A DNA stretch of 64,000 nt, taken from positions 379,388 through 443,387 of the forward strand of contig PTFA01000160.1 in assembly GCA_003342895.1 (NCBI GenBank). The letters run 5' to 3'. The translations under genes were made by a program, and so were the position numbers. The notes beneath the pieces are model-generated. The model did not search any database. It worked only from the letters and a program-made list of their open reading frames with translations, and was not told the origin of the DNA. Of the stretch, positions 19,117 through 61,511 are shown piece after piece; within the stretch, counting starts at the first letter, position 1, and each line of letters opens with the position of its first letter. This DNA is from Casuarius casuarius. Taxonomy: Eukaryota > Chordata > Aves > Casuariiformes > Casuariidae.

Positions 19117-19212
19117 ATGATGGCCGACCAGCCGCCTCCATTAGAAGCTACACCTCTATTGAATGAAGTGCCACTTCTACCTCATATGGTTAATGGGGAC
19201 AGCATACAACAG
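19117..19212 (+). CDS. FNDC3C1: FNDC3C exon 2 (first coding exon, residues 1-32)
   Basis: The exon begins at tandem ATGs (19117 and 19120). The start MMADQPPPLEATPLLNEV and the segment LPHMVNGDSIQQ match the FNDC3 N terminus, nearer to FNDC3B. It ends at CAG 19212 and is followed by gcaagta, a GC donor, which is the only junction that keeps the frame into VILVQVNPGE. Confidence 0.93.
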
Positions 19213-43200: not shown

Positions 43201-46200
43201 ACATGTCACATCTATCATGCTTCCATTTTACTATCTGGTTAGAAAAATGTGTATTCAATAAACAGTATGTGGTCTCTCTTTCAGGCTGTGAATATCGCTG
43301 GAGTTGGGTTGTTTGGTGAGATTGGTGTGGTGACAACCCCTGCATCAGTGCCTGCAGCAGTATCAGTACTGCATTTACTTGAAGAAGATCAAATGGAAAT
43401 TTCTCTTCCTTTATCAACGTGCCTTGCAATTCAATGGGAAGAACCATGTTGTCATGGGTCAGAGATCACTGGATATAATATAGAATATGGGGAAAAACAG
43501 CTTGTAACTATTGATAGAAATACAAGCCATGTTCTTGAGAATCTGCTGCCTGACACTCTGTACAGGTGATAATTTATTGTTTTATTCTGAAACTGCCTTT
43601 GCAGGAATTTCAATCCATAGCTTTAAGGGCAGTGTTTTTTAAGTTTTATAGCAGCTTCATTCAGACTACAGTATATTTTGCAGTAGGTCATTTCTAATGG
43701 GTAGTCTTAAGCAAACCAGTCGCTGTGAGTGTGGTCTGAGAGGTAATGTAAATGGAAAGTAGACAGAAGTTTTCTTGGCTTCTAAATAATACCATACTTT
43801 GCTTCTGGAGAGAGCAAGAGTTTGTCACTGATATATTGTAGACAAAACACAAATGCTTGATGAGAGCTCATTTCTTAAGTTGATTCTTCTTTGATGGGAC
43901 TTGCCTGTCTGTCTTCCCTTAATATTGATAGATTCTGCACTCATTCCTAACACGTCAGATAAGGGTCACTGAGTGAAGTACTTATAAACAAATGGGCATA
44001 CGCTGTACATAGGAGAATGAGTTAAGGAATTCTCTCCTTAGGGTCTATGTAGTTAACAGAGAGGAGGTACGTAGTGATTGAAGGCCTTAGTCAATAGAGA
44101 GGTAATTATTTTGGAGCTTTGCTCGTAACTTGGATAATCAAGTCCCTGAAATAAGTGATGCGATTATTTTAGTAGGAAATGATGATACTTGGCTAGTTCT
44201 GTATCCTGTTTCTGGCATCCTTTGGTACAGGGTATTATGGGAGAGACAAAGAAAGTTGAGAGATTTCTTCATAAAATGGTCAGTAACTGGATTTGTCTCA
44301 CTTTCTATATGTCTTTCAGTTACTTTTTTTTGTTGTTGTTGTTCACTAAAACATGTAGAGCAGAGGTTTCCTCTAGCTGCCGATACGATTATCGGGCAGC
44401 ATTCATGAGAAATCTGTTACCTAGCTCGTGAACAAACTAGTTCAGGTGGTAGCCTTTACCTTTAGGATGCTAGCAATAAGCCAGCAAGTTCCAAACAGCT
44501 GTGTTTTTTACTTTTTTGTAAATTATTTTTCCAAATGAAAAAATTATTGAAAAATACTTACTAAAGACAAACTTGCATTAAAATATAAAATGTCATTCAT
44601 ACTTTGTTGTACAATTCTGAGGTATGGTTTTGGTAGTGCTGTCAGATATGCTCTACCGTTCTGCATGTAAGAGCTTTAGATCCCCTGTAATCTGTAACAT
44701 TTTCTTTTCTTCATTGTCTATAATGTTCAACTAATATGCTTAAAAAAAAGAAAAAGCAAATAGCACTTGAATATTAGAATTGGTCTTTCACAGGTGTGAC
44801 TCATGAAATGGTCTTTTTTAGTACCATAATATTTTTGTTATCTAATAACACTTAATGCTGGGAAAACATCACGTAAGTGTCATTCCTATATAGGTTGCAT
44901 TGCAGTTAGACAGTATGCAATATATAAACATATGATTTTTTTTAAGGGTGGAGGAAGAGGAATAAATGCAGACTTTACGTATGTTGCATTATGCAGTCTT
45001 TTGCTTTTGTTGAATATCTACCTGATTTACTCAGCAGCTCTAAAAAATAAAACTAAATTGTCATACTCAGAATTAAACCATGATGTCTAGGGGCAAGAGG
45101 GAATGCTATATTAAGGTGGTCATTCTATCTCAAATCCAAGACAAAATTCCAGGTTTTGTGAGTTTAGAATTTTTTATTCAGAAGCTATATGTATAGTGAG
45201 ATGATCACCAAAAGAGGGTGAATGTATGGATAGGGTAGCTGTTCTTGTATTGGGCCCTTAGGTTTGGTTAAAGTTCAGTTCAGGTTATGGAACATCATTA
45301 TCGATGAGAGGCAAGCCGTTCAGGTTAAGGTGATGTTGGGGCACCTGGGCGTTTGTCCGTTGTGTAGAATAAACCTGAACAATACTGAGAAACACTGAAG
45401 TTTTGTTATGTTGGAAAACAATGTAATTATTTTGACTCATTTTGAAATAGATTATTTTTTATAGTTAAAGTTAATTTCTAACTGCTTTTTAATTGTTTTG
45501 TTGTTTGTAGCCATATTCGCTACAAATTTTGACTTTTACCTCATTACCTAGTATTTTTCCAGGACTTCAGTAAATTACTCACATAGCTGCTCTTTTCACA
45601 TTTCTAGAGTTAGAATACAGGCCATAAACAGCTTTGGAGTTGGTCCTTTCAGCCATTCCATTAAAGCCAAAACAAAACCACTACCTCCTGACCCTCCTCA
45701 TCTTGAATGTGTGGTCTTCAGCTACCAGAGCCTTAAACTTAAATGGGGTGAAGGTCCTAGCAGAGCTTTAATCACCAACCCTACACAATTCAATTTGCAG
45801 ATGGAGGACAGGTTTGGCAGGTAAGATAATTAGAACATTGAGGATGTCGTTATTGCTTAAAAACTTGATGTTCAGTTTTTAACACATTTTAAGTTTTCTT
45901 ACCTCTGTTTTCACCAGTAAGTAATGGAAAAACTCATTTGGACATCGTAAGTTTGCTCCTTAACTTCCATTTTTGCATCACAACTTTCATCCAGAAATGT
46001 TGTTAATAGCTGCTGTTCTAGTATTTATTGGTAAGCAGTAGATTTACTAGTTAAATAGTAATATGTTACTATCTTTCTGTATTGTCAATTTCTGTATTTT
46101 TTGAAAATTCTAAAGTGCAGTCCAGTGTGCACATAATAAACATGTTCTTTAACTTATCATTACAAATGTATCTTGTATATGCAAAGGTCATTCTCTTGGC

Positions 46201-49200
46201 TGAAATCAAGAATTTGGTCATGTAGTTTCAGAGGTAGCCTGTGCATGGCTGTAGTTTAGTGCCTGCATGGGTTGAATGAAGGCTTCATGAATTTAAATTA
46301 AGACTTCCACCAGTATGAATGTTGTGTGTTGCTGGTTTAATGCGCATCATGAACCACTGATGACAATAGCAGAGTTTGAACTGCTTAACATTTCTTTATG
46401 CATGTATGTAGTAAGCTGGGGTAAGGGGAAATGTATTGTGATATTTTTGTAGTAAATTTCGATATGAAAATGTTCACCAAGCTCACTTGCAATATTAACA
46501 TAGAAATTTGTGATTATTGAGTAACTCTAAGTTGTGCATATAAATATATATTTTTTTTTTCCTTCCAGGTTTGTTACTGTTTATAGTGGTCCTTGTCATA
46601 CATACAAGGTACAGCGACTCAGTGAATCCACTACATACTATTTTAAAATCCAGGCATATAATGATGCTGGAGAGGGGGAGTTTTCTGAAGTTTACGCTTT
46701 CACTACAACTAAGTCTCCACCAGCATCTCTGAAAGGTGAGCTTATACAGCGCTAGAAATCTCTGTAAGCCATTTATGTAGTATGTTAAATGTTCAAACCT
46801 GACTCATTTCCTGATCTAGCCTCTTTCCATGGCCTGTGCGGGACAGAGAACAGAAACTAGCTGTGTTTGAGCATTATCTTGGTATAAGAAGGGTTTTACT
46901 GGCTGAAGACTGGTGTAGCCTTCTCCCACACTGTATCCCTTCCACCTCTGACAGTGGGAATATTCTCTACCCATTTGCAACTGGTTTCTCAGGGTAGCTA
47001 TCATTTGATACAAGTTAGCATGTAGGCAAATGAGAACACAATACAAATACATCCTCTGATCTTCGCTTCATAATATGAACATTAAAGATCCCCTCTAGCG
47101 AAGGTCATTATGAAGATCAGAATGCTAAGTATTTGCAAGAAAATCAGTTTAGTGAACCTTGTTTATAGCATTTAATTTCAGCTCTGGAGATATGGGGACA
47201 TAAATGACGTTCTCCCTAGTGATTTGGAAGTGTTTACTCATCTGGACAAGCATTAGGCTTTAGAAGGTCATCTTGTCAGCTAAAAAGGAAGATAAATGTA
47301 ACCTGCACTTATTAGAATAATCATTTTGTAAGTTTATCTCATGAAAGATAGCAAAGAAAAAGAAAGTAGTACAAACTGAAAAGCTTGATTACTTAGGATG
47401 ATCTGAATGTCTGTTGTTACCTTTAAGAATAACTGTTACTTCTACGTTGTTACCAAATGTGGTGGAAAACCCTTCTTAAGGTTTTAAATTGTCCAGTCAT
47501 TTGCACTAGAACTGATAAACTTTGATTTTATACATTTTCTGTTTAAAGTGTATTTTAAGCAAGAGTGGAAAAAAAAATTCCTTATTGTCAGTGAAACCAG
47601 TGAAAAGATGAAGAATTTGAATACCTCTTTGGAGATATTCAAAACCCGACTGGTCATGGTCCTGGGCAACCTGCTGTAGCTGACTGTGCTTGAGAAGGGG
47701 AGGTTGAACCAGATGATCTCCAGACGTCCCTTCTAACCTCAAACATTCTGTAACTTAAAATGTCTTGTTGGTGTTGCCTGCCCTCTATATTAAGAGAATT
47801 TATTTTTAGTTAGAAACAATATTGTCTAATTTCTGTTTATGAGGTGCCAGACGAACTCTTTGTGTAAGAGGTTCATTGCCCACTTAAGACACTAACTGAA
47901 TATGAGTCACTGTAATAATTAACAATTTTGGCTTGTTTTCTTTCCATCTAATTGGAAAAGGCAAGAACATTTGTTAAGACCATTGTTCTCTTTCCTAAAA
48001 TACCAACAAATCACTTTCTTCCAGCACCCAAAGCAAATCAGCTGGAAGAAAACACTTACGAAATCACATGGGAACCTTTACAACCGATGAAAGGAGATTC
48101 CATTGTTTACATCCTTCAGCTTGCTGCTGGGAGAGAGTTTGATCAGGTACTTCTTATTGGTGTAATTTTTACTTGAAATATAATTTTTACTTTGAAAAAG
48201 TATTGTAATTGTTATCTTCTTGATTTTTACGAAATCTGATTATATTTTCAATAGTAAGTTTTTTTTCCAAAGCACTTTACAATTCCTGTCTTTGTTCAGC
48301 TTACTTCAAATGTGTTCAAAGCAGCACTTTTAAATCTCTTCATGCGAATCATGCATTTTTAATCACATCCCAGGAAAGTAATGAAACTACAGATTGTATG
48401 TTTGGGCATCTAGGGTTGGGCAGATAATGGGTAGGCAGTCTGCTCTGAGTGTTTGTTTTGAGATTAATTTGCTTTACCCAACTGCAAGTACTTTTTTAAT
48501 GTGGAATTTTGTCACTTAAGGATTTCCCCACACACACACAAGACTGTCATTTCTCTCTGAGGTGCTTGATTGTGGTGGGTGTGCATAAGCTCTGCTGATG
48601 CTCAAAGACTTTTTTTTCTTAGCAGTATGTGCATGAGCATATACACGCTGTGTCCAAATGGGTGTGTGTTTTCTCATTTTCTGTCAATCTTTTGAGATCC
48701 TAGGTCCTCATTGTAGTACTAGATGGGAGGCTGTCTTTGTCTCTCATCTTAGCTATCCTTGTTTTGAGGTTTAATCCTGCTCAATTTATTTCATTTTATT
48801 TTGGAAGAACACTTTCACTTCATTGGCATGCTCTCTCCTTATGGAGGGTCTTTCCCCAAAGCTTCTCTCTGTAACGTGGCTAGTCAGCTCAGCATTTGTT
48901 GCTTCTGCCGCCAGCATAGTAGCATGATGTCCTTTGGCCTTTGAGATTTGCCAGTCATACACAAAGTGAGTTTTGACTCCCAAACATCACCTGCTCTGGA
49001 ATGAGGAGTATAGCTCTTCCAAGTTCACATGAACACGTATGTTCTTGATCTAAACAGTTTTGAGTTACCAGTTCACAGTTTAGTTTGTAGTCCATAGTGC
49101 TGACCTGAAAAGAAACATCCAGCTTTTAGCAAACAGAATGGTGCATGGTTCTGTAGCAGGTTCCCGGGTTTGATTTTTAGAAGATTGGCATCATCCTTTC

Positions 49201-50633
49201 ATCTATGCTGAAAGGCTTTGCAGTTTGATACGGTCCTCAGTGGAACTTTGTTGGAAATCCCAAAAGGAATGATTAATTGTTTTACAGCACAGAGCTACTG
49301 CTACTCACCCATTCAGGACAATAATTCACAAATAATGGCGGGCAGTAATCCCTTCACCATGTTTGGCATTAACAAGTACTGAAAGCTTATTTTTTAATTC
49401 CAGAAGGTCATCAACCCTTGAATCTGATGCGTTGAGTGTCAAGTATACCTGCACGTCTTGCTTGCCTAGAGTTCTGACCACCTTAGCAGATGGGTTCAGT
49501 TCCTTTAAACTGGTATCAACATGCTACACAAAGCTTGAGGAAGAAGCCTGACTTCCCTATGGAATGACTCTGCCTGCCGGTGGCTGCTGCTGGTCACTAG
49601 ACTAGATGAACCTTTGATCTGACCCCATAGTTATGTTCTTCCTGAATTTGTCCTGCTTTTTTCTCCTTTCCTTTCTTTCTTTCTTTTTAAATCCTAACAT
49701 TATCCTCCCGGTTGTTTTCTTGGCCTGCTGATGAAGCAGACAGTCTGAATTTCTACTTGTACTCTTCCTCTCAAGCAAAACCACTTAATAGGAACTGATC
49801 TGTAAAGTGAAGGTCTTAATGTTTCAGTTCTATAGTGAGCTTTTGCTTGTACTGTAAAAGCAAATGGCTGCAAAGGCAGGCTTGAGAGTCACTGGGAGAG
49901 CTGCTTACGCAGAAGTGGGTTGACACTGTTTTAGCCTGTTCTCCCAGCATTTCCTTTGGCTCTTTGATTCTTGAGTCTCTCAGTCTCTGGCATCATTGTC
50001 TTCGTTAGTCACAGACAGCACTTGCCCCACATTTGTCAGCACTGTAGAACTTTATTTTTTCTGAGCTCCAAAATCCAGATCTAGGATCTGTCACTGTGCA
50101 GTAGAGCATAATGGGATGCTTTTGATTATTCACTCTTCAGAAATAAAAGCTGAGATTTTAATTCAAGATCCATCAAGTTGGCTGGAAGAGAATGACTTCT
50201 GGCTGTGTCCAGCATTGCCTGTGTCATACAGCAGAATGCTACACGGAAAGTATCGCTTGCTGTTTGTAAGATGAATCACATTTAAAGTGGTTCTCCTTCC
50301 TCTTGTTCTTATTAGGTATACAAGGGGCCAGAGACGACGTTCCGTCTCACAAGCTTGCAGACAAACTGTGAATATCGGATCAGAGTCTGCGCTGGCCGTC
50401 AGTCTCAAGACTCTACTGGATCGCAGGAACTGTATGGACCTTACAGTCCCAGTACAGTATTCTCATCTCAGAAACAAGAGCTGGTTCCACAGTGTGCTGA
50501 TTTGACAACAGAATTGGCAGAGACTAAGAAGACATTGCGTGAAGAACGCTTCATTGCTATTGTTCTTCTTTGCGGATTTGCAGTGGTTGCTATTTTATTT
50601 GCTGTTGTTATTCAGTACTTTGTGATCAAGTAG
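19117..50633 (+). CDS. FNDC3C1: Fibronectin type III domain-containing protein 3, FNDC3C paralog (25 coding exons)
   Basis: FNDC3 proteins are tail-anchored membrane proteins of the secretory pathway; FNDC3A is needed for spermatid adhesion and FNDC3B (FAD104) acts in adipocyte differentiation. Joined exons: 19117-19212, 22926-23001, 24183-24259, 28128-28362, 29886-30158, 32134-32189, 33384-33538, 33801-33860, 35594-35732, 36783-36836, 37764-37885, 37971-38145, 38413-38499, 38800-38938, 39546-39614, 39886-40004, 40102-40207, 40782-40957, 41769-41882, 42550-42699, 43285-43565, 45608-45820, 46569-46735, 48025-48146, 50316-50633. They give 1192 aa with all phases matching, close to FNDC3A and FNDC3B (about 1200). 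Layout: conserved N-terminal block 1-83, Pro/His-rich region about 100-150, basic linker about 160-250, nine FN3 domains about 268-1140, membrane anchor about 1168-1190. The protein is FNDC3A-like in many places, but the N terminus is FNDC3B-like and the TAF9B neighbour indicates FNDC3C. No frameshift or stop is seen, so the gene appears functional. Confidence 0.93.
19442..19491 (+). repeat. Perfect 25-bp tandem duplication
   Basis: The 25-base unit at 19442-19466 (starts atgtagtggaaa, ends agatac) is repeated exactly at 19467-19491. Absence of divergence suggests a recent event or a polymorphic site. Confidence 0.95.
21116..21139 (+). repeat. C6-G15 run
   Basis: Six C are followed directly by fifteen G and then tgg. 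This is a low-complexity tract with G-quadruplex potential, and its length is hard to sequence accurately. Confidence 0.9.
22396..22505 (+). repeat. Interrupted (TG)n/(TATG)n/(TA)n microsatellite
   Basis: Alternating TG, TATG and TA repeats run with interruptions over about 110 bases. Open frames on the opposite strand here are repeat artefacts. Confidence 0.9.
22926..23001 (+). CDS. FNDC3C1: FNDC3C exon 3 (residues 33-57/58)
   Basis: Encodes VILVQVNPGETFTITTEDG and VQCIQ, a strongly conserved block of the FNDC3 family. The acceptor is tttttacag and the donor g|gtaaaag, leaving phase 1. Confidence 0.95.
23002..24182 (+). other. FNDC3C1: FNDC3C intron 3
   Basis: AT-rich sequence without a recognised feature apart from a small perfect palindrome at 23352-23370 (ctacctta/taaggtag with a 3-nt spacer). 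Confidence 0.8.
24183..24259 (+). CDS. FNDC3C1: FNDC3C exon 4 (residues 58-83)
   Basis: Encodes PAHVPMMSPNGSMPPIFVP and PGYVSQ, matching the VPMMSPNGS..PPGY block of FNDC3A/B. The acceptor is gacttttcag and the donor CAG|gtaaat; it ends in phase 0. Confidence 0.95.
24260..28127 (+). other. FNDC3C1: FNDC3C intron 4
   Basis: About 3.9 kb of AT-rich sequence with a T homopolymer at about 26424-26446. No exon or recognised repeat family is visible. Confidence 0.75.
28128..28362 (+). CDS. FNDC3C1: FNDC3C exon 5 (residues 84-161), Pro/His-rich segment
   Basis: Starts with VVEENGVRKVVVLPHSAEF (FNDC3A has a similar IEDNGVRRVVV block), then a stretch dominated by proline and histidine including runs of seven Pro and four His, then GTGELPPQF. 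The compositional bias is family-typical but very marked. The acceptor is atgacag and the donor caag|gtgaga (phase 1). Confidence 0.95.
28363..29885 (+). other. FNDC3C1: FNDC3C intron 5
   Basis: Apart from the MIR fragment at its start, I see only AT-rich sequence in this intron. The acceptor is ctttatag. Confidence 0.8.
28425..28560 (+). repeat. MIR SINE fragment
   Basis: The order 'gagaccaaagctctgttg', 'ttagctctttcac', 'gttgggctagttattaacc', 'tctccaaaccttactcacc' matches the forward MIR consensus. It lies in intron 5, in sense orientation. Confidence 0.7.
29886..30158 (+). CDS. FNDC3C1: FNDC3C exon 6 (residues 162-252), basic linker
   Basis: Encodes a Lys/Arg/Ser/Asn-rich linker with HLKKRLKDRQ and LNSPPSSPHK, which match the KKLKDRQ..SSPPSSP segment of FNDC3A. 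No globular domain is expected here. The donor is gag|gtaggt (phase 1). Confidence 0.95.
30159..32133 (+). other. FNDC3C1: FNDC3C intron 6
   Basis: Nearly 2 kb of AT-rich sequence with an A homopolymer at about 31770-31790. Nothing else is recognised. Confidence 0.8.
32134..32189 (+). CDS. FNDC3C1: FNDC3C exon 7 (residues 253-271)
   Basis: A 56-nt exon encoding an acidic linker (ESDTESKKYDIHLSIGKPV) leading into FN3 domain 1. The acceptor is gaattttcag and the donor gta|gtaagt; phase 1 in and 0 out fit its neighbours. Confidence 0.9.
32190..33383 (+). other. FNDC3C1: FNDC3C intron 7
   Basis: AT-rich intron with nothing recognised. It ends in ttttaatag before exon 8. Confidence 0.8.
33384..33538 (+). 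CDS. FNDC3C1: FNDC3C exon 8 (FN3 domain 1, first part)
   Basis: Encodes VSDIQARSAVLSWNLPV, the A-B strand region with the conserved Trp, and ends KNGKFKSVY. It matches FNDC3A SDIQARTVVLTW. The donor gt|gtaagt leaves phase 2. Confidence 0.95.
33801..33860 (+). CDS. FNDC3C1: FNDC3C exon 9 (FN3 domain 1, middle)
   Basis: A 60-nt exon encoding GEELTITLPDLRPATDYHA, with the L.P.T.Y FN3 motif. It is preceded by an unusually long T-rich tract (33773-33797) before the CAG acceptor. Confidence 0.95.
33861..35593 (+). other. FNDC3C1: FNDC3C intron 9
   Basis: About 1.7 kb. The part around 34150-34520 is slightly less AT-rich but matches no family I know. No exon is supported. Confidence 0.75.
35594..35732 (+). 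CDS. FNDC3C1: FNDC3C exon 10 (end of FN3 domain 1, start of domain 2)
   Basis: Encodes RVSATSSSIKES, SELVSFTTESCEPDSP and KLINRTKNSLSLQWK; the last matches FNDC3A NRTKNSLTLQWK. The donor is aag|gtaagt (phase 0). Confidence 0.96.
35733..36782 (+). other. FNDC3C1: FNDC3C intron 10
   Basis: AT-rich intron of about 1 kb with no recognised repeat or exon. Confidence 0.8.
36783..36836 (+). CDS. FNDC3C1: FNDC3C exon 11 (FN3 domain 2)
   Basis: A 54-nt exon encoding SSNDNGSKITNFLLEWDE, equivalent to FNDC3A PSDNGSKIQNFVLEWDE. The donor is gag|gtaagc. Confidence 0.95.
36837..37763 (+). other. FNDC3C1: FNDC3C intron 11 with a long T tract
   Basis: Contains an almost pure T tract at 37602-37640 interrupted by one A. 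Otherwise nothing is recognised. The acceptor is tttaaag. Confidence 0.85.
37764..37885 (+). CDS. FNDC3C1: FNDC3C exon 12 (FN3 domain 2, end)
   Basis: Encodes GKNGPFRECYYGHLKQYKL, TKLSPSTKYSLRLAAKNDIG and M, with the L.P.T.Y..R..A.N..G signature of FN3. The donor ag|gtaatg leaves phase 2. Confidence 0.95.
37971..38145 (+). CDS. FNDC3C1: FNDC3C exon 13 (domain 2/3 boundary and FN3 domain 3)
   Basis: Encodes SGFSETVAYYTAG, a proline-rich interdomain VPPPPSPP, and VEAGVTWLSLKWSPPNG, which matches FNDC3A TKAGITWLSLQWSKPSG. The donor is tct|gtaagt. Confidence 0.96.
38413..38499 (+). CDS. FNDC3C1: FNDC3C exon 14 (FN3 domain 3)
   Basis: Encodes GYGFQPQYNGDELSCTLRNL and RRSTSYKFR. The donor is agg|gtttgt, the weakest GT site in the gene, chosen because it is the only nearby one that keeps phase 0 into LFAYNSEGKS. 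Confidence 0.9.
38800..38938 (+). CDS. FNDC3C1: FNDC3C exon 15 (end of FN3 domain 3, start of domain 4)
   Basis: Encodes LFAYNSEGKSNPSEVVEHST, NPDKPGPPSKPTVKGKIHSH and SVKVTW, near-identical to FNDC3A here. The donor is g|gtaggt (phase 1). Confidence 0.96.
38939..39545 (+). other. FNDC3C1: FNDC3C intron 15 with a TG/TA microsatellite
   Basis: Holds a (TG)n tract at 39119-39143 followed by a (TA)n tract at 39147-39166. The rest is plain AT-rich sequence. Confidence 0.85.
39119..39166 (+). repeat. (TG)n-(TA)n microsatellite
   Basis: About twelve TG units are followed by ttt and ten TA units, a simple compound dinucleotide repeat. Confidence 0.95.
39546..39614 (+). CDS. FNDC3C1: FNDC3C exon 16 (FN3 domain 4)
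   Basis: A 69-nt exon encoding PPKDNGGSDISKYFLEISE and TLV; PPKDNGG is a family signature. Phase 1 on both sides. Confidence 0.95.
39886..40004 (+). CDS. FNDC3C1: FNDC3C exon 17 (FN3 domain 4)
   Basis: Encodes SKWENIYSGPQREHVCDHL, KPGTSYRMRVYCISKGGESQ. It matches FNDC3A KWEMIYSG..REHLCDRL. The donor is cag|gtgaga. Confidence 0.96.
40102..40207 (+). CDS. FNDC3C1: FNDC3C exon 18 (end of FN3 domain 4, start of domain 5)
   Basis: Encodes VSDVLTVTTSAVPPGPCHAP and GKAKPKEITLQW. The donor g|gtaagc leaves phase 1. Confidence 0.95.
40488..40615 (+). other. FNDC3C1: Candidate cassette or alternative terminal exon in FNDC3C intron 18
   Basis: A strong T-rich acceptor (ttttttgtttttag) ends at 40487. 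Joined to phase-1 exon 18, the frame reads AQERRQAKSNE and stays open to TAG 40613-40615. A possible donor (gaag|gtacaa) after 40520 would make a 33-nt cassette that keeps phase 1 and so adds 11 residues. Without it, an alternative C terminus lacking the membrane anchor would result. I know of no such exon in other FNDC3 genes; it may be chance. Confidence 0.3.
40782..40957 (+). CDS. FNDC3C1: FNDC3C exon 19 (FN3 domain 5)
   Basis: Encodes PPSIDGGSEVTEYVIEMANS, RRQVYQGPASEYAVNNLLPG and RTYCFWIRAANKVG, with the L.PG..Y..R..A.N..G FN3 signature. The donor is ggg|gtaacc (phase 0). Confidence 0.95.
40958..41768 (+). other. FNDC3C1: FNDC3C intron 19
   Basis: Contains a small stem (41291-41313, caccgag/ctcggtg) and otherwise nothing I recognise. 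The acceptor is ttttcttacag. Confidence 0.8.
41769..41882 (+). CDS. FNDC3C1: FNDC3C exon 20 (domain 5/6 boundary)
   Basis: Encodes FGPHSDKAEISTAPGPPDQC, KPLITCKSATCVVVSWE, matching FNDC3A TTAPGPPDQCKPP..CRSATC. It is Cys-rich for an FN3 protein. The donor is gag|gtaggt. Confidence 0.96.
41883..42549 (+). other. FNDC3C1: FNDC3C intron 20
   Basis: AT-rich intron, no recognised content. Confidence 0.8.
42550..42699 (+). CDS. FNDC3C1: FNDC3C exon 21 (FN3 domain 6)
   Basis: Encodes SPACNGAEISEYRLDWGQVE, GSMHIIYTGPLLSYEVKGL and TPATTYYCRVQ. The YRL.WG.VEGSM..Y segment is specific to FNDC3A/C-like members. Phase 0 at both ends. Confidence 0.96.
42700..43284 (+). other. FNDC3C1: FNDC3C intron 21
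   Basis: No recognised feature; ends in a pyrimidine tract and ttcag. Confidence 0.8.
43285..43565 (+). CDS. FNDC3C1: FNDC3C exon 22 (end of FN3 domain 6 and most of domain 7)
   Basis: The longest internal coding exon (281 nt). It encodes AVNIAGVGLFGEIGVVTTP, an acidic interstrand stretch HLLEEDQMEISLPLSTCLAI and WEEPCCHGSEITGYNIEYGE. The expected W..PC.HGSEI motif of the family is intact. The donor is ag|gtgata (phase 2). Confidence 0.95.
43566..45607 (+). other. FNDC3C1: FNDC3C intron 22
   Basis: About 2 kb of AT-rich sequence; no exon, repeat family or RNA gene is recognised. Confidence 0.75.
45608..45820 (+). CDS. FNDC3C1: FNDC3C exon 23 (end of FN3 domain 7, start of domain 8)
   Basis: Encodes RVRIQAINSFGVGPFSHSIK, AKTKPLPPDPPHLECVVFSY and QSLKLKWGEGPS, matching FNDC3A TKPLPPDPPRLECVAFS..LKLKWGEG. 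The donor is ag|gtaaga (phase 2). Confidence 0.97.
45821..46568 (+). other. FNDC3C1: FNDC3C intron 23
   Basis: AT-rich, no recognised content; it ends in a long T tract followed by ccttccag. Confidence 0.8.
46569..46735 (+). CDS. FNDC3C1: FNDC3C exon 24 (FN3 domain 8)
   Basis: Encodes FVTVYSGPCHTYKVQRLSES, TYYFKIQAYNDAGEGEFSEV and YAFTTTKSPPASLK. It is nearly identical to FNDC3A RGPCHTYKVQRLNES. The donor g|gtgagc leaves phase 1. Confidence 0.97.
46736..48024 (+). other. FNDC3C1: FNDC3C intron 24
   Basis: Contains a CR1 3' end (about 47625-47757, sense). Otherwise nothing is recognised. Confidence 0.8.
47625..47757 (+). repeat. CR1 LINE fragment (3' end)
   Basis: Segments 'ttcaaaacccgactgg', 'ctgggcaacctgctgtag', 'aaccagatgatctccag', 'gtcccttctaacctcaa' and the terminal attctgt follow the 3' end of chicken-type CR1 in the forward direction. 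Confidence 0.88.
48025..48146 (+). CDS. FNDC3C1: FNDC3C exon 25 (FN3 domain 9, first part)
   Basis: Encodes APKANQLEENTYEITWEPLQ, PMKGDSIVYILQLAAGREFD and Q; FNDC3A has CEITWECLQPMKGDPVIY. The donor is cag|gtactt (phase 0). Confidence 0.96.
48147..50315 (+). other. FNDC3C1: FNDC3C intron 25
   Basis: The last intron, about 2.2 kb, less AT-rich than average between 48700 and 49640. It ends with a probable old CR1 3' end (49520-49640). The remaining GC-richer stretch looks like decayed repeat or retrocopy sequence that I cannot name. Confidence 0.65.
49520..49640 (+). repeat. Probable old CR1-type 3' end
   Basis: The run 'agactagatgaacctttga', 'tctgaccccatagttatg', 'ttctt' resembles the 3' end of older sauropsid CR1 families (agactagatggacctttgg, tctgaccca, cttatgttct). 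The 5' limit is uncertain. Confidence 0.55.
50316..50633 (+). CDS. FNDC3C1: FNDC3C exon 26 (end of FN3 domain 9, linker, membrane anchor, stop)
   Basis: Encodes VYKGPETTFRLTSLQTNCEY, RIRVCAGRQSQDSTG, a charged linker with ELAETKKTLREER, and the hydrophobic tail FIAIVLLCGFAVVAILFAVV ending IQYFVIK. The last residues are the same as the FNDC3A C terminus. Stop TAG at 50631-50633. A single C-terminal membrane segment with almost no tail predicts a tail-anchored protein with the FN3 array facing the cytosol, unless an alternative topology applies. Confidence 0.97.
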   Translation, partial: VYKGPETTFRLTSLQTNCEYRIRVCAGRQSQDSTGSQELYGPYSPSTVFSSQKQELVPQCADLTTELAETKKTLREERFIAIVLLCGFAVVAILFAVVIQYFVIK

Positions 50634-52940
50634 ACTAGAGCCTATTCCGTACTCAGCTTTTTGTACAGAAGCTATTTCGGGTATTTATGGTTAGTTCTAA
50701 TTAAAATCTTAGCTGGAAATGTGTAGATATGTGCATTTCCACTTTTGCTGCTGGCTAACAGTGAGGCTGGGTTGGCAGATCCTTTCCAAATACTGAACAC
50801 AGATTTCTTGTAGAAAGGGTAATCCTGGGTCCTCTGTAATCAGGGTTAGCTGTTAATAAAACAGCAAAAAACTGCCTTATCATGCACACTGGTGTGTGTG
50901 CACACTCTTCCTCTCTCTGAATGCAAAGTGGGGGCCCTTTGGCCAGTTCAAGAGAGAAGGCATTATTAGAGCAAGTCCTTTTAAAGTACAACTAGAGCAG
51001 TGGTAGTCAATCAGCAATGTTTAATCAGGTATTGTTGTAGTTTGGTATACATGAAATACAGCAGCACAAATGCTTAAGCTTAGAGCAGTACTGTATTGCA
51101 GAACATTACTAGAGCATACCACATTTAATATACTGTAGAAGGAAAGCAGAATATTGACTTTGACTTAGTGATATTACTACTTTACAGTTATTTTAATATT
51201 TGGGATTCAGTAATAATCATTTCAAGTGTTAAAGTAGAGGGTGCCAGCATTTTTAGGATTTTAATTAAAATGCTAGACAAAATGTTAGCAGGACGTAATG
51301 TACATACAGCAATTGCATTCGTATGTAACATTGCAAAAAAGGCCCCTTTTGTATTGTACATTTCTGAATGAAATGCTTTCTGCTGTTGGTGAGCAGCTGT
51401 TGGCCCAATCCACATTTCACTCTCAGTGCCTGAGAGAAAAGTAATTTCCTGTGCTTCTGATTAAATCTTTGCAGTGTTTTCAGAAAAGCACAGGTATTGT
51501 CTTTAAGGAGAAAGAGTGCATTTATGATAAATGTTACACTATTTGGCTCAAACTGAGCAAATGTTTTTGTACTATTATTAACCTAAAAATAAAAAGTTGA
51601 AACTGCTTTTGGATGCCCTTCTAACTTAATCTGAATTATCAAATTGTACATGAAAGAACTCTTTTTAGATAACATTTATACAATGTTTTAAACAAATTGC
51701 TATCCCAGTGGTAGCAGTTTCACATTCCATTGTTTTCTAGATGAGAATGTTCAGTCTGCTATGAACTTTTTCTGAAACTTGTCATATTTGTCTAGGGGTT
51801 ATTTTTGTGGACACTGTGCACTACATATGACTGTTCTTGTTAAATCTATTTGCAAATATCTAAAGATGAGTCTGACAGCTGTCTTCTTTATATCAAATAT
51901 TTTGAAAGCTGGAACTCGCAAATTTAGAACATGTTTCAGAATGGGTCTTCCTAATAGCATTGGCATATGCCACAGAAAGTTAGATTTAGTGTATTTTGCA
52001 AAGACTACAGCTACACTTTATATACATCAGAACAATGCACTTGTACGTGGAATGTTGGATGTGATAGTGCTACAGGCTAAGTATTTCAAATAATTGATCA
52101 CTTTAAGGGTCTTTCTCCTATGGCAGTTGATGAATAATGTTACGTTATAGTTTGAGGCATTGTGTTGTATTTCAGATGTGGAAAACTTAAATTATGACAT
52201 AGTATCGCTTAATACTCTTAAAAGTAGATTTATGGTGCAATCTGAAATTAATCTTTTCAAAGTGTACTCTTCATTTTGTACTCTATTTATTTTGATTAAA
52301 AGTCCTGGAAAATGTATGTTTGAATGTATTGTTCTACTTGTAGCAGAACTTTAAGTTAATCATTTATTATATCATAGAAATCTCTCCCTCCAGTGTCGGA
52401 AAGAGTTTTATACAGATATTAGTGTCTTTAGTTTGCAGAAGAGTTTACAATCTGTCTTTATTTCTCTTCATAGTCTACTTTTAGCAAATAAGACTGCCTT
52501 CAGCAAATCTCTATTGCCAAAGGGTTATTTCTTTAACTCTTAGAATGAAGTTTGTAGAGATTTATTTGGCAATAATATTTCTGATAATTTTAAAAGATAA
52601 ATTAGGATTGCAGAGTAAATACTAACAAGTCAGGACTCCTAAAATGTAAAATAAAGTTCTTCTGTAATTGCCACAAAATGTTCATGTTTCCAGAAAATAT
52701 ACTGGAAAGCCTACCATAATATAGATTTTTTTTTTTTTTTTACATCAGCTATTATCCATTCCAGAATGATATACCCTAGTGGCATTAATGTATTAGGTAT
52801 CTTTCCATTTTTCTTGTATTGTAATTTTGAGGTATCTCAAACTTATGTTAAAGCTGCCATGCATTGTATTACTAAATTGTAACTATCAAATAGATAATAT
52901 ATTTAATACAGCCAATAAATAATACAAATGTATTCAAATT
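50634..52940 (+). other. FNDC3C1: FNDC3C 3'UTR
   Basis: AT-rich sequence without coding support after the stop codon. AATAAA hexamers occur at 50855-50860, 51588-51593, 52650-52655 and 52914-52919. The last is followed by a GU-rich stretch (about 52950-52970), making it the best distal site; the end at about 52940 is inferred. Confidence 0.6.
52914..52919 (+). terminator. FNDC3C1: Candidate distal poly(A) signal of FNDC3C
   Basis: AATAAA followed 30-50 bases later by ttgctgtgtatttttgtgg, a typical downstream element. Upstream AATAAA copies (50855, 51588, 52650) could give shorter 3'UTRs. Confidence 0.5.
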
Positions 52941-53497
52941 TGATCATAGGGTTGCTGTGTATTTTTGTGGATTTTTATTCAGGAGCAGTTTTATCATTTG
53001 TGTAGTGTATAACTTAAGTTGAAGAAATGCATATAGAATGGTTACTAAAGAGCATTAAGGGCTGCCTTAAAAAAAAATCTTTCTGCAGGAAAAGTTATTT
53101 GGGAGAATTCCAGGACAAAATCTGTTAGGGTCCATACATTTTCTCTCTGGATGAAGAAGTGTTTCAGATGGATGTGCTGTACAGTTTTGGCAACGTCAAT
53201 ATTATCAAAGGAGGCATATCCTTACTGACCGTGCCCTCTGCCTGCTGCACCTCTGGGGACACTTCTGGGGACACTTCTGCTGGTGTTTTTCAGACTCAGT
53301 ACAACGGAAAGAGCAGGACACCTGGAGTCACTGCCAGGGCTACACTGTTAATGCCCCGGACTCTTCTTGAGGAAACGTGATTTATACTGGAAGTGGAGAG
53401 GATGCTGTGTGTCTGTCAGTTAACTCCGGTGGAAATACTTGCAAGGCAGAGGAGGAAAATGCAAACTGGCTCTTTCCTTCCAACCATTTTTGTCCTG

Positions 53498-53588
53498 AAA
53501 ATGAAATCTAAAGCAGTGGTTTACCAGTGCTTAGTGGTAAAGCTTAGCTTTACCAGTGCAGTGGTAAACCACTGCTTTGATTTCATTT
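53498..53588. repeat. 91-nt near-perfect palindrome / hairpin
   Basis: Arms 53498-53544 and 53546-53588 are near reverse complements around a one-base centre at 53545. Paired blocks from outside inward: a 10-bp aaatgaaatc/gatttcattt, a 17-bp block from aaagcagtgg to ttacca, a few mismatches, and ggtaaagct/agctttacc at the tip. The 11-mer tttaccagtgc also occurs as a direct repeat at 53520 and 53550. It resembles a pre-miRNA or a recent inverted duplication; no known family is recognised. Confidence 0.75.
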
Positions 53589-54394
53589 CGTCCCATGCCG
53601 TGAAGGGTGTATAGACTCTTGTTTCTCAAAGAACGGTTTTTATCCTGCCCTCAGAACACAGCAAGGGGCTGCAGAAGCAGCTTTGTGTGGCTCTCAGCCA
53701 CATCAGTGAAGTCAATGGTGCTGCTTTACTTCTGTGAGCCTGCGGCAGTATGTCCTGTCAAAGCGATGAGTTCAGACCTTTGCAGGTCATCCTTCCTAGG
53801 AAGCTGGTATGGGGACGCTGTGACTGAAACCCCTGTTGAATGGCAGGTGGTTGCAAAGGCGCATACTGAAATTCAGCACTTCTAAAGTCCTGTTTAGCTT
53901 TCAATAACTTCTGTAAATGCTTTTCCCAGAAAAGAGTCAACACTTTCCACCTGAGTCTGCGCTACTAGGTTTTTATTTTTCTTCAGAAAGAAAGAAGGGA
54001 GAGGGATAAGAAATGATGTATATTATGCACTGGGGTGCATAAACAATATACCTCGTGTGACCCAGAAGGTAGTTATTCTGCTTGGCTGTGGGTCTGTCAG
54101 GTGTTCATCACTGCAGTGCGGTGCTCCGCTTTGGGGTACTGCATTTTCAGGAAGGGGCAGACTAACGGGAGAAATCCCGGGGGATTGCATGGACAGCAGT
54201 CCTGAGAGAACCCATGCGACTTGCAGAAGAAAGTCCATGTGTGTGTGTTCCTAAGGGAGGAATGCCTTCCAGCAGGCAAAAGGCTGTCTCCAAGAAAGAA
54301 AGGGGGAATAATTACCTTTCTTTCTGCCTGAAAGGGAATGGGCTTTCATTTTCAGCAGGGATGGATGTTAAAACTTTGTACAAGTAAGGATAGG

Positions 54395-54500
54395 AAACCA
54401 CTGGAAGAGATACCAGGAAAGTACTATAGTCTCCATCACTGCAAGTTTTAAAAAACAGGTTAGACAAGCATAATCAAAAATGGCATAGGAACAGTTGATC
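54395..54500 (+). repeat. CR1-like fragment
   Basis: The bases 'tagtctccatcactgcaag', 'ttttaaaaaacaggttagac', 'aagcataatcaaaaatgg' resemble the CR1 segment just upstream of the 3' end (agtctctatcactggag, ttttaaaa.caggttggac). It is diverged and the borders are approximate. Confidence 0.55.
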
Positions 54501-54828
54501 TGAGGAGTGGCGGGGAGTGGGCTTACCATCCACGCTGTCATTTCTCGACCTGCTTCTCCGGATGATCACTCGTGATGAGCACCACGGGTGGTGTGTGGGA
54601 CATGCACTCTAGTCACAAAGTCAGACCTCCACAGAATTTCTTTTAATTTCTTGCAAAAGTACTTTCTCATCAGGCTCTGCAGAGGTAGACTTGCTTTAAC
54701 ACAATATTGTCCTCCTGGTTCCCGGCAGATGTGTTGGTCTGGGGGACCAAACAGCACGATTCCTTGATCCCTTTCCTGTGAGGTCAGTAGGGCCGGGGCA
54801 GACCATGCATTGGTGATCGGGCTCAGTG

Positions 54829-54862
54829 TTTGCCTGTCTGCCTTACAAATAAGACAGGCAAA
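54829..54862. repeat. Short 11-bp stem-loop
   Basis: tttgcctgtct and agacaggcaaa are exact reverse complements around a 12-nt loop. It could be chance; it lies in the 3' flank of the receptor gene. Confidence 0.6.
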
Positions 54863-55174
54863 TACCTTCTGCTCTTGCTTCCCTCCCCAGCAATCTCCAG
54901 TATCTGTAGTTTGTCCCTCGTCTGTTTGGATGAGCTCTCAAGGCAAGGGCTGTTTCTTGCTAGGCATTTGCGTAGTGCTTAGCAGAGATGGGACATGACT
55001 TTGCCGAAAGCTTGGTATAGTTTGAATAAAGAACAGGATAAAAGGCTGAAAATGAGGGCAGCAGCTCAAGAGACCTGAAGGGTGAGGAATAAATCAGTCT
55101 TTGCAAAGGAGGCAATGCTTTCACAGTCTCAACAGGTAAATAGTTACCTATTGCTTTCCTTTCAAGTATCTTAC

Positions 55175-55622
55175 AGATTATATTCCTTGTATTTATTTGC
55201 TGAAAGCAAGCAGCTGGACTGGCTTTAACTTCATCTTTCTTAGCTTCTGTGAGAAGAAAATAATGAATTATGTTTCACGAAGCCTGTGTTTAACGAAGTC
55301 TCTGGTCCAAAAAACTGAGACACAAATCCCTTAAACAGGAGCTTTTTGGACAATTAAGCCTGCAAATGTGGCTGGTAAGTTCACTTAAGAGAAAGCCCAG
55401 TCTCTGCCAGTGTCTGCCCCTATTTGTGGAAATAATTTTAATCGACTCTAAACCTCCTAAAATGTCATAAATGTATCTCAGGAAACATCCTCACATTCAA
55501 AGGACAGCCTTAAAGCATGTTCCAGTCAGCATGTTCACAGTCTACCAGGATTTTAATCCATGTCACAGCATATTGGCTGGCAAAATGCTTAGGCTGCTAG
55601 AATTAAGTCAATGCTGGACAGT
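55175..55622 (-). other. Putative 3'UTR and poly(A) signal of the GPCR
   Basis: Downstream of the stop codon on the - strand the first AATAAA is at 55192-55197 (TTTATT on +), about 425 nt past the stop. The transcript end near 55175 is inferred; no coding sequence is seen. Confidence 0.5.
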
Positions 55623-55915
55623 TTATGTGAAAGAACCGAGTTCTGTACTTTCAGAAGAAACCTTCTCACTCCTGGTCAGGCGCCTGCAGTGCCAGGTTTG
55701 CTTGTGGTGCAGGATTTTGCTCATTGCTCGTCTGTATTTCTGTGACATAATATTGTAAAGGATCGGGTTTATAGAAGCCCCAAGGTAGAAGAGAAGCATG
55801 GAGATGAGGTTGAAGTACTGCGTGAGGTCATACAGGATGATTTCAGTCTGGGCGAAGAGGATTCGGCCGATGTGGAACGGGAGCCAACACAGTACAAAGG
55901 CCAAGACTACGACAG
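55623..55915 (-). CDS. GPCR exon 2 (residues 257-353: TM6, TM7, C-tail)
   Basis: The acceptor on the - strand is ttcccccttta g|ctgtcg. It encodes AVVVLAFVLCWLPFHIGRIL, ASINPILYNIMSQKYRRAM and a basic, Ser-rich tail ending TELGSFT with TAA at 55625-55623. Confidence 0.92.
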
Positions 55916-58202
55916 CTAAAGGGGGAAGAGAACACAGCTTAGTCATTTTGAGCATAGTTTCTTCTGCTTCTTCAAACTATTTAATGACCGAGACATCAGC
56001 CTGTAACATTTAGCCCAGCAAAGATGAGACCTCCTGCTCTGAGCAGCTCCCGTTGTGCTGCGGTTACTGGTGACCTCGAGCAACGTGGGTTTAAGGTTGC
56101 ACACAGGAGCGATTGCAATTAGAATAGAGCTCTCTGCACCCATGTTGCCCGGTGGAGATAAGGAATCAAATCGGGCCGGGGCAAAGCAGCCCCAGGCCTG
56201 TGAAAAATTAGAGGCTACTGCCCTCTCTTTTCCTAAAAACATGAGTCGTCATTGAAATCCTGCTGTGGGTCTCGGGGTTAGGGGGAGGAACAGGGGACGT
56301 GTGGGGAGATGGAGAAGGGAAGCAAACCGCAAAGCAAAGCGGTTGAGGAAGCTGGGGTCTGGGAGGTGCCACGAGACACTGAGGAAGAGGAGGGAAAACA
56401 GAGCACCTCATAAGCAAAAAAAAAGAAACTGGAGGGAAGCAGCCAATGAGTAGCGAGACTGCGCTGTTCTGCTGTGGTCTGTTCTCTTGCAGGTAGCTAT
56501 AGGTGCGGGTGCTGCTGGGTCCCTGCCAAAAACACGTTTCTGGTGCGGGGGTCTTGGGAGGGGGAGGCTGGCGGGATGGGGGAGAGTTTGCACAGGGAAC
56601 TGAAAAGGGACCTATTTTGTGTCCTGGCCCTGGGCTAATCTTTGGAACATTTCCATTGCAGAAAGATACCAAAAAAGTCCGCGGACTGCTTGAGGCCTGA
56701 CAGACGGGTCCTTTGGCCCTCGCTGTGACACCGGCACCGCTTTGGAAGGGCGGAAGGCTGGACAGAGGCACCTCTCCCCTCGCGGCGAGTGCGCACCCAG
56801 GCCAGGATGCTGGCGGTGGGACACCCAACGTAAACCACCTTGTTCCACAACAGCTGCTGGGGGTGACTCTCGGATGTGCCGTAACGGAGGGGAGGAGAGC
56901 CAAAACCTTCCGGGTTCAGTGAATCTGCCCCAAGCCACAGGGATCAGCTGGGGCAGAAGAAAGATCACATTCAGCTAAACCCAGACACATGGGTAGTTAC
57001 CACCCGGCAAACCTGAGTCATTAAACTCTATATGTTTTGCAGGGAAAGTGGCTTTAAACCCTTTCCGTGCTACAAGAGGGGAAGTGCTTGGTCTGGTTTT
57101 AAGTCACAAAATTTTCCCATTTCTTTGCTTTAATCCCACAGGGTCAGAGATGGGGGTAGAAAAGAGGAGTGTGGTCTCAAAAGAAGCAGAAGCCATGCTG
57201 ATTTGCTTCCCTTCAGTGCAACAGGATCCTGAGCCTGAACGCTGTTCGGACGGGGACTCCCCTTCTCACCAGGAAAAGCTAGGAACTAAGTCCTAAGTCA
57301 TAAAGCTGTTGATTTTAAATCATTGTGAGCCTGTGAGTTTTGAATCTCCTCTCCCCCCGCATCACGATGGCTTGCCCCGCGGGAGGGATTAGGGAAGGCG
57401 GCTTTTCCAACTGGGTTTCTAAAACGCTCTTACCCAGCATTTTGACCGTCTGCGCGTGGTAGCTTTTCCTGCTCGCAGCCTGGCGCCCCCGCAGCCGCCG
57501 CCGGCTTCGCCACAGCTTTCTGCAGACGAGCCCGTAGAGCAGGGTCAAGCAGAGCATCGGCAGGAAGAAATAAATGGTGGAGACCCAGGCCATGGTCTCC
57601 AGCAGCCCCGTGCGGGCGGCGCGCTCCGTGTGCTTGCACTCCTGGCTCGCCCGGGGGTGGCTGCCGTTGCGCTCTTCCACCCCGAAGAGGAAGAGGACGG
57701 GGCCGGCGCTGAGCAGGGAGCAGCCCCACAGTGCCAGGATGACCCATTTCACCCGGCACTTCGTGATCGTCACCTTGGCTCTCAGGGGGAAGCAGATGGC
57801 GAAGTACCGCTCCACGCTCACCGTGGTGATGTGCAGGATGGTGCAGTACGTGCACGTTTCGCTCAGGTAGATTAAGAACTTGCAGAGAAAATCCCCCAAA
57901 ATGTACGGCCTGTACTTCCAGATCCGGTAGAGGTCCGAAGGCAGGCCAAGGAAAATCAGGGTGTCCGACAGCGCCATGCTGGACAGGTACATGTTAACGG
58001 TCGTTCTCATTTCCTGCGAGCGTTTGAAAATTAATATTGTTATCAAATTCCCAGAAACCCCAAAGAAAAACAAGAGGATGGAAATTATAGTCACAGGCAC
58101 CAAAATATGTATGTCAAACAAAGAAAAAGACTGATCTTCATAGTAGTCTGTGTCAATTCTGGAATGGCTGTAATTGGAGATGGAGCCCATCTCTGGCTTC
58201 AA
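55623..58202 (-). CDS. Ghrelin/motilin receptor-family GPCR (third paralog), two exons
   Basis: Class A peptide receptor related to GHSR and MLNR, which signal through Gq at the plasma membrane. Exons 58202-57434 and 55915-55623 join in phase 1 to give 353 aa. Visible landmarks: N-glycosylation site N10, GNLIT in TM1 (N51), MALSD in TM2 (D80), C107-C189 disulfide, ERY 131-133, GVEERNGS in loop 2 (N179), CWLPFH in TM6 (266-271), NPILY in TM7 (306-310) and a Ser/Thr-rich tail. Pocket residues D90 (2.60), E115 (3.33) and R274 (6.55), used by the ghrelin receptor, are present. The single intron just before TM6 is as in GHSR and MLNR. Some segments are GHSR-like (ERYFAICFPLRAKV), others MLNR-like (LGLPSDLYRIW). 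It is not simply either gene: GHSR is expected next to FNDC3B, MLNR next to FNDC3A. The start at 58202 gives a typical N-terminus length; Met5 is an alternative. Confidence 0.9.
55916..57433 (-). other. GPCR intron (1518 bp)
   Basis: The donor is g|gtaagagc and the acceptor ctttag. It is GC-rich in the middle, creating a 231-codon and several smaller open frames without recognisable domains. The position, just before TM6, equals that of the GHSR and MLNR introns. Confidence 0.85.
57434..58202 (-). CDS. GPCR exon 1 (residues 1-256: N terminus to intracellular loop 3)
   Basis: Encodes the extracellular N terminus, TM1-TM5 and loop 3 (RKLWRSRRRLRGRQAASRKS) up to QTVKML. GC-rich codon use between 57440 and 57870 produces long antisense and off-frame ORFs, which are shadows. 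Confidence 0.92.
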
Positions 58203-61460: not shown

Positions 61461-61511
61461 ATGGAGCCGGCCAAGATGGCGTCTCCCAAGAGCGCGCCCA
61501 AAGACGCGCAG
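61461..61511 (+). CDS. TAF9B: TAF9B exon 1 (residues 1-17)
   Basis: Encodes [17 protein letters not shown]. The first in-frame ATG in a purine-rich context; family members start MESGK. The donor is cag|gtaccg; the following intron is only 78 bp. Confidence 0.93.

Follow-up and report, generated by a model that had tools for sequence, protein, structure and literature searches.

Does the cassowary carry, next to a third FNDC3 gene, a third receptor of the ghrelin/motilin family, and do the two genes descend from the whole-genome duplications of early vertebrates? The question arises from a window of 64,000 nucleotides of the Casuarius casuarius genome, which is the whole stretch of DNA analyzed here. 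We consider it likely, at a probability of roughly 0.85, that the receptor gene of this window, named R3 here, is a third ghrelin/motilin receptor paired with FNDC3C in the way that GHSR is paired with FNDC3B and MLNR with FNDC3A, that it originated in an early whole-genome duplication and that it works in a GHSR-like manner.

The window holds an FNDC3 gene, then R3 convergent to it, and then a TAF9-family gene divergent from R3 (Table 1). A preliminary description had placed the receptor convergently and directly behind FNDC3C, and the location of the R3 exons and of the last FNDC3 exon bears this out. The FNDC3 gene covers its bird relatives from residue 1 (MMADQPPPLEATPLLNEV...) as far as the transmembrane segment at the C-terminus and reaches far to the left of position 50316, where the block was first said to start; the ATG of R3 lies 12 bases inside 58202, its former end. 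The R3 model has one open frame across both exons with no internal stops, and its intron falls between TM5 and TM6 of a gene of two coding exons, as is a trait of the family. In the TAF9-family gene all junctions are GT and AG, the frame is open and the gene continues past the window edge; PDB comparison gave 319.6 bits with human TAF9 vs 293.8 bits with TAF9B. On the mammalian X, FNDC3C presumably adjoins TAF9B.

Table 1. Location of the features in the window.
Feature	Position	Strand	Details
FNDC3C-type gene	19117..50633	+	25 coding exons found; tblastn with P0218 and P0223, open frames, trees
Last coding exon of FNDC3C-type gene	50316..50633	+	end ...VVIQYFVIK-stop; 98% identical to P0218
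R3 gene	58190-55623	-	349 aa, two exons
R3 exon 1	57434..58190	-	N-terminus and TM1-TM5; end ...HAQTVKML plus first base of split codon; donor GTAAG next
R3 intron	55916..57433	-	GT...AG; read-through of the donor from exon 1 gives 39 codons (first one split), then stop
R3 exon 2	55623..55915	-	acceptor TTTAG; TM6, TM7 and C-tail (...VVVLAFVLCWLPFHIGR...), stop codon included
TAF9/TAF9B-family gene, first five coding exons	61461..63535	+	61461-61511, 61590-61671, 62017-62153, 62229-62363, 63454-63535

The PDB search with R3 returned human GHSR (E 2.1e-111, 375.6 bits) and human MLNR (E 8.5e-103, 347.4 bits) at the top, against 184.5 bits for NTSR1 and 174.8 bits for NMUR2, and chance resemblance is excluded by the E-values of GHSR and MLNR. 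Judged from its sequence, R3 is a member of the ghrelin/motilin receptor family, with the NTSR and NMUR receptors more distant from it than GHSR/MLNR. It is identical at 323/325 positions to a cassowary protein which bears the label 'GHSR'.

In a tree of 68 rows R3, GHSR and MLNR formed three separate groups (100/99, 100/100 and 99/97), and in a FastTree of 220 rows the R3 clade comprised 88 rows with local support 98. The window clade takes up 87 of the 120 matches listed (742 were found), from birds to frogs, with a polypterid and a sturgeon as its ray-finned fishes. Among these 87 there was no named mammal, which fits the earlier idea of a member lost in mammals. No shark R3 was found among the matches listed and sharks retain FNDC3C, hence a loss of R3 in sharks must be assumed.

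The FNDC3 gene was placed by a tree which is without FNDC3B rows (the retrieved proteins and the PDB list yielded none) and whose human FNDC3A row fills 25% of the columns. The window gene grouped with Xenopus laevis fndc3c.L and apart from FNDC3A (100/100), so its grouping with FNDC3A, which the preliminary description had named as a finding that would speak against it, was rejected. FNDC3C is kept in marsupials and platypus, and we take mouse Fndc3c1 and human FNDC3CP to be the same gene.

The linkage of receptors with FNDC3 genes was read from contigs of identical length, taken as the same contig; direct adjacency was seen in the window and in Ascaphus, where the R3/FNDC3C pair has the consecutive locus tags FKM82_027210 and FKM82_027211. 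R3 and FNDC3C lie on contigs of identical length in 18/19 species, from amphibians to alligator, the mismatch being Pygoscelis papua, the sole bird of the set. Equal-length contigs were found for R3 and MLNR in 0/23 species and for FNDC3C and MLNR in 0/13, and for MLNR and FNDC3A in both of the sharks which had the two tabulated. Sitting with an FNDC3C-type gene and on contigs other than those of MLNR, R3 probably does not have the FNDC3A linkage of MLNR proper. Passages of published work place GHSR beside FNDC3B (PMC4797157) and MLNR with FNDC3A in wrasse (PMC5840709); together with the R3-FNDC3C pair they support the proposal that each of three FNDC3 genes has one receptor. No paper was found in the literature which links the R3 clade to FNDC3C.

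According to this reading, the whole-genome duplications of early vertebrates would have multiplied a single FNDC3-receptor pair; mammals would later have lost R3, and several bird groups would have lost it or kept it in reduced form. Of the descent by whole-genome duplication put forward earlier, the timing fits; we infer the derivation itself, from three FNDC3-receptor pairs of jawed vertebrates. This sampling leaves room for another origin, by which R3 is an old small-scale duplicate predating jawed vertebrates and its FNDC3 neighbour is no footprint of genome duplication, and so does the rooting, since the NTSR1/NMUR outgroups have very long branches, put the root inside the MLNR rows and do not fix the order of the three splits. 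We regard such an origin as improbable, because all three receptors accompany an FNDC3 paralogue and FNDC3A and FNDC3C had parted before sharks and bony vertebrates did.

The residues of the binding pocket were counted over 50 R3 rows and 13 GHSR rows, with numbering after human GHSR; the roles of the pocket and activation residues in GHSR, including Gln 3.29 which is thought to touch the acyl group of ghrelin, are taken from passages of PMC8568970. The salt-bridge pair of the ghrelin pocket is kept, with E124 (3.33) in 50/50 and R283 (6.55) in 49/50 R3 rows, and W276 (6.48), H280 (6.52) and F312 (7.42) are present in 49/50, 49/50 and 50/50; the row without R6.55, W6.48 and H6.52 is P0021. ERY, N319/P320/N324 and D2.60 are each found in 50/50, F279 of the activation cluster is replaced by Leu in 11/50, and V182 is replaced by F in 48/50. 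The ECL2 stretch (human 183-197) has 15 residues in 45/50 R3 and 13/13 GHSR rows. Q120 (3.29) occurs in 0/50 R3 rows vs 13/13 GHSR rows, its place being taken by V, I, F or C, and from this absence acyl-ghrelin is probably not the best ligand of R3. The AlphaFold model of P0001 has a mean pLDDT of 77.6 (the five models span 77.6 to 53.3), and its first structural match is ghrelin-bound GHSR (TM 0.83/0.90).

R3 may work like GHSR: a ghrelin/motilin-like peptide from gut or brain would enter the transmembrane pocket with its N-terminus and shift the E3.33-R6.55 salt bridge, and by way of the W6.48/H6.52/F7.42 cluster the receptor would be activated towards Gq and Gi. With no named mammal in its clade among the matches listed, R3 may be a hormone receptor lost from our lineage. 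A bolder and tentative suggestion is that it serves a third hormone axis of ghrelin/motilin type, separate from the other two and with a peptide of its own or an acyl-independent ligand, present in early bony vertebrates, working in ratites, crocodiles, turtles, lizards and frogs, and gone from mammals and standard laboratory birds; if so, this absence would explain why its physiology went unnoticed.

R3 could also be a relic of little function heading for loss, as several bird copies suggest: the entries of Falco (marked LOW QUALITY), Trogon, Aquila and Athene look frame-shifted, shortened or without conserved residues, and galliforms, anseriforms and passerines, like mammals, are absent among the named window-clade matches (120 listed of 742). 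The window copy is, however, intact and 92.4% identical to that of kiwi, and the near-invariant pocket and G-protein motifs of the 50 R3 rows disfavour a long relaxed selection, so we hold this to be very unlikely.

The database labels, under which many species have R3 as 'GHSR' or 'GHSR type 1-like', and the nearly equal identity of R3 to human GHSR (53.9%) and human MLNR (52.2%) would suit an additional copy of GHSR or MLNR, confined to sauropsids or tetrapods, which came to lie next to FNDC3C. We give this reading almost no credence, because AU tests under the model used rejected R3 with tetrapod GHSR (p 2.9e-8), tetrapod R3 with tetrapod GHSR (p 1.7e-6) and R3 with sauropsid MLNR (p 3.5e-6), and because two ray-finned fish members group with tetrapods inside R3 (100/99). 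With the 68-row tree, these tests put R3 outside both clades, so that it is neither GHSR proper nor MLNR proper, and the nesting which the preliminary description had named as counter-evidence is rejected. That the window FNDC3 gene is FNDC3B and its neighbour a GHSR which evolved fast, as the 'GHSR' labels and an FNDC3 tree lacking FNDC3B would allow, is hardly credible, because GHSR and window-type FNDC3 contigs differ in length in 3/3 species with both genes tabulated (Hemicordylus, Latimeria and Acipenser ruthenus), Hemicordylus carries both GHSR (P0112) and R3 (P0076), and fndc3c.L lies within the window FNDC3 clade.

Among known systems, GHSR shares with R3 the two exons with the TM5/TM6 intron (a passage of PMC4797157 gives two exons and one intron for GHSR in most mammals), E3.33, D2.60, R6.55 and an FNDC3 neighbour, whereas its clade, its partner and the residues Q3.29 and V182 differ. 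MLNR has the family, the fold, the E3.33-R6.55 pair and the FNDC3 neighbour in common with R3; it forms a separate clade, and in human MLNR chain residues 182 and 232 are separated by a long segment which R3 lacks. Teleost GHS-Ra-LR2a/b are, like R3, an extra clade of GHSR/MLNR type; the same paper, in the part concerned, calls them teleost-specific, lists LR2a for gar too, gives one GHS-R for all tetrapods, and shows an FNDC3 gene flanking LR2b in sea bass and medaka (PMC4797157). Our guess is that LR2b of these two fishes may be the teleost MLNR. A passage of a 2019 Sci Rep paper (PMC6504862) reports 'MLNRB' from coelacanth, amphibian and two reptiles and treats it as a new subtype of MLNR; birds, FNDC3C and a loss in mammals do not come up in that passage. 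Compared by taxon list, the spread of 'MLNRB' matches that of R3 provided that R3 was missing from the birds in that Ensembl release, and on the described taxa the R3 clade probably overlaps 'MLNRB'.

The receptor gene of the window is a real and intact third member of the ghrelin/motilin receptor family and lies beside an FNDC3C-type gene, which bears out the main points of the preliminary description. The 64 kb contain zero N. The receptor has two exons and 349 amino acids with a frame open throughout, and the coding exons of the FNDC3C-type gene start, by tblastn, at MMADQPPPLEATPLLNEV (19117). The Rfam search of the window gave 0 matches at the gathering threshold.

Features of the window and the basis of their placement
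Feature	Position	Strand	Basis or remark
FNDC3C-type gene, 25 coding exons	19117-50633	+	tblastn with bird proteins P0218, P0223
C-terminal transmembrane exon of the FNDC3C-type gene	50316-50633	+	tblastn
Receptor exon 2	55915..55623	-	after GT...AG intron
Receptor exon 1	58190..57434	-	convergent behind the FNDC3C-type gene
TAF9-family gene, intron-containing, divergent from the receptor	61461-63535	+	start 61461

When receptor exon 1 is read past its splice donor, 39 codons follow up to a stop (57315-57433, minus strand). GHSR1b is a truncated form of GHSR, and judged from the sequence such read-through could give a five-transmembrane product resembling it.

Chance similarity of the receptor was ruled out by the scores of its matches in the structure database, where the best relatives of known structure were human GHSR (375.6 bits) and MLNR (347.4), with NTSR1 (184.5 bits) and NMUR2 (174.8 bits) far behind. 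A Casuarius casuarius entry named “GHSR protein, partial” agrees with the window receptor at 323/325 positions, which points to a cassowary or a closely related ratite as the source of the DNA. Protein searches were done with the window receptor (742 matches) and with lungfish MLNR (706 matches), the best 120 of each being used; the retrieved proteins are clusters at 90% identity carrying one name each. All 217 retrieved receptors were analyzed by FastTree together with the window receptor, human GHSR and human MLNR. The window receptor fell in a clade of 88 rows with local support 98, here called R3, formed by the window and 87 of the 120 listed matches of its own search, and the remaining 33 stood outside. 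Many members of R3 are annotated in databases under GHSR names.

The smaller receptor trees and the AU tests used 65 of the 217 retrieved proteins, picked by taxon. In the 68-row tree the window clade (19 rows) had support 100/99, GHSR (13 rows) 100/100, and the branch separating the 36 MLNR rows 99/97. The alternative that R3 arose within one lineage as a copy of GHSR or of MLNR was rejected by the AU tests, both for R3 grouped with tetrapod GHSR (p-AU 2.9e-8) and for R3 grouped with sauropsid MLNR (3.5e-6); the grouping of only the tetrapod members of R3 with tetrapod GHSR was likewise rejected (1.7e-6). The receptor thus nests in neither family, in keeping with the separate block which had been proposed. 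Coelacanth P0081 clusters with MLNR in the tree. Five fish proteins (P0085, P0093, P0103, P0104 and P0119) fall with MLNR in the tree and carry the database label growth hormone secretagogue receptor.

Among the matches listed, R3 has members in birds, a crocodilian, turtles, squamates, frogs, salamanders and caecilians, and in two non-teleost ray-finned fishes, Erpetoichthys (P0083) and Acipenser (P0084). In the tree a shark stands at the base of GHSR and cartilaginous fishes lie within MLNR. Because the shark-bearing GHSR clade excludes R3, R3 would have split off before the crown group of jawed vertebrates, provided that the root is not within GHSR. Rooting with NTSR1, NMUR1 and NMUR2 as outgroups put the root among the MLNR rows, which we attribute to the very long end branches of the outgroups (0.6 to 3.1), and such a root would not change the date of the R3 split. 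No shark R3 was present among the matches listed (best 120 of 742). A separate FNDC3C-type gene was seen in cartilaginous fishes (P0317, P0318, P0334, P0336 and P0321), labelled FNDC3A-like or FNDC3a.

No R3 of a mammal, galliform, anseriform or passerine was found among the named matches listed (best 120 of 742), a pattern which is no proof of absence. The FNDC3C matches include many passerines, Anser, pheasants, marsupials and platypus among the best 120 of 438. The FNDC3C proteins kept in marsupials and platypus (P0296, P0306 and P0327) have long branches in the tree. Since a 90%-identity cluster carries one name, a songbird R3 could hide under the name of another bird; the small size of the R3 clusters counts against this, the biggest having 31 members among the matches listed vs 233 and 181 for passerine-named clusters of FNDC3C and MLNR, respectively. 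The Trogon, Athene, Falco and Aquila entries in R3 (P0077, P0079, P0082 and P0116) look frame-shifted, truncated or devoid of some conserved residues, and they may represent repeated decay in birds or poor gene models.

The linkage of R3 with FNDC3C was surveyed through the size of the longest contig recorded per protein, compared between genes by species. R3 and FNDC3C were on identically sized contigs, which means the same contig and not adjacency, in 18 of the 19 species having both recorded: alligator, one turtle, four squamates, one caecilian, one salamander and ten frogs. The exception is the only bird of the 19, Pygoscelis papua, where the contigs differ (11,112,925 vs 11,413,577). Equal sizes were found in 0 of 23 species for R3 and MLNR, 0 of 13 for FNDC3C and MLNR and 0 of 3 for GHSR and FNDC3C; the 23 include Engystomops and the 13 include Rhinatrema, in each of which the sizes differ. 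The locus tags of R3 and FNDC3C directly follow each other in Ascaphus, on a contig of 361 kb. MLNR and FNDC3A had equal contig sizes in the two sharks for which both were recorded (Stegostoma 82,076,947; Cetorhinus 106,584,623).

For the FNDC3 neighbour, a conserved FNDC3C region, chosen to pick up FNDC3A, B and C at once, was used as query (438 matches, best 120 used), and trees were made from 43 and 28 of the 120 listed matches, in which FNDC3C and FNDC3A were the only types identified, with no FNDC3B. The 30-row tree holds the 28 matches, the window and human FNDC3A, the last taken from PDB letters covering 25% of columns. The window gene belongs to a 24-row clade that contains X. laevis fndc3c.L and whose members extend from sharks to birds, and the FNDC3A of shark, chimaera, a teleost and human lies on the opposite side of a 100/100 branch; the identity of the window gene as FNDC3A was accordingly rejected, and the gene, proposed as a third FNDC3 type in the preliminary description, stands apart from FNDC3A.

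The TAF9-family gene scored 319.6 bits with human TAF9 vs 293.8 with TAF9B. In human, TAF9 is autosomal and TAF9B is X-linked, and we take TAF9B to lie beside FNDC3CP on the mammalian X. Such a neighbour would suit the mammalian X region; it was not used as proof because TAF9 outscores TAF9B. As it has introns and scores higher with TAF9, the gene may represent the ancestral locus of TAF9 and TAF9B.

Under human GHSR numbering, the ligand pocket was compared in 13 GHSR rows, 36 MLNR rows and 50 rows of R3, of which one is the window and 49 come from the 87 listed matches. E124, Y106 and F312 were present in 50 R3 rows and R283, H280, W276, F286 and L181 in 49, with the ERY motif and N319/P320/N324 in 50. 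Position F279 (6.51) has Phe in 38 rows and Leu in 11; Leu occurs in 11/11 squamate rows, the others having Phe and one a gap, so that this change in the activation cluster is confined to squamates within the 50 rows. At Q120 the R3 rows have V (20), I (19), F (10) and C (1), with Q in 13/13 GHSR and H in 22/36 MLNR rows. In the cryo-EM account of PMC8568970, as far as its passages on the pocket go, a salt bridge between E124 and R283 splits the ghrelin pocket, mutation of this bridge all but eliminates binding, the acyl group of ghrelin likely interacts with Q120, and a non-polar residue there lowers ghrelin potency according to earlier studies. The AlphaFold model of the retrieved protein P0001 (mean pLDDT 77.6) has ghrelin-bound GHSR 7w2z as its top structural match (TM 0.83/0.90, 56% identity), MLNR structures following from rank 11. 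R3 would be a peptide receptor that couples to Gq/Gi and binds a ligand of the ghrelin/motilin type, acyl-ghrelin probably not being the preferred one.

Passages of earlier papers credit tetrapods with one GHS-R and one motilin receptor (PMC4797157), tabulate one motilin receptor and GHS-R1a per class (PMC6533539), or, in a review, name GHS-R1a and splice forms for tetrapods, paralogues beyond a few teleosts being little known (PMC3713435). MLNRB, described in a passage of PMC6504862 as a novel subtype in coelacanth, amphibian and two reptiles, probably overlaps R3, judged by the described taxa. Among the open-licence papers listed in literature searches, none was seen to describe a receptor next to FNDC3C. 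R3 is already present in databases under GHSR names and was probably glimpsed once as MLNRB; what is new is its position among the FNDC3 genes and the way it is spread and has been lost. With a third intact receptor, conserved in its pocket and present in most of the major groups of tetrapods except mammals, studies of appetite, growth hormone and gut motility may rely on an incomplete list of receptors in reptiles, amphibians and non-model birds, and the ligand of R3 is now a directly testable question. In earlier work, GHSR is placed between FNDC3B and TNFSF10 (PMC4797157) and wrasse mlnr adjoins fndc3a (PMC5840709); R3 completes the set of three as FNDC3A-MLNR, FNDC3B-GHSR and FNDC3C-R3.
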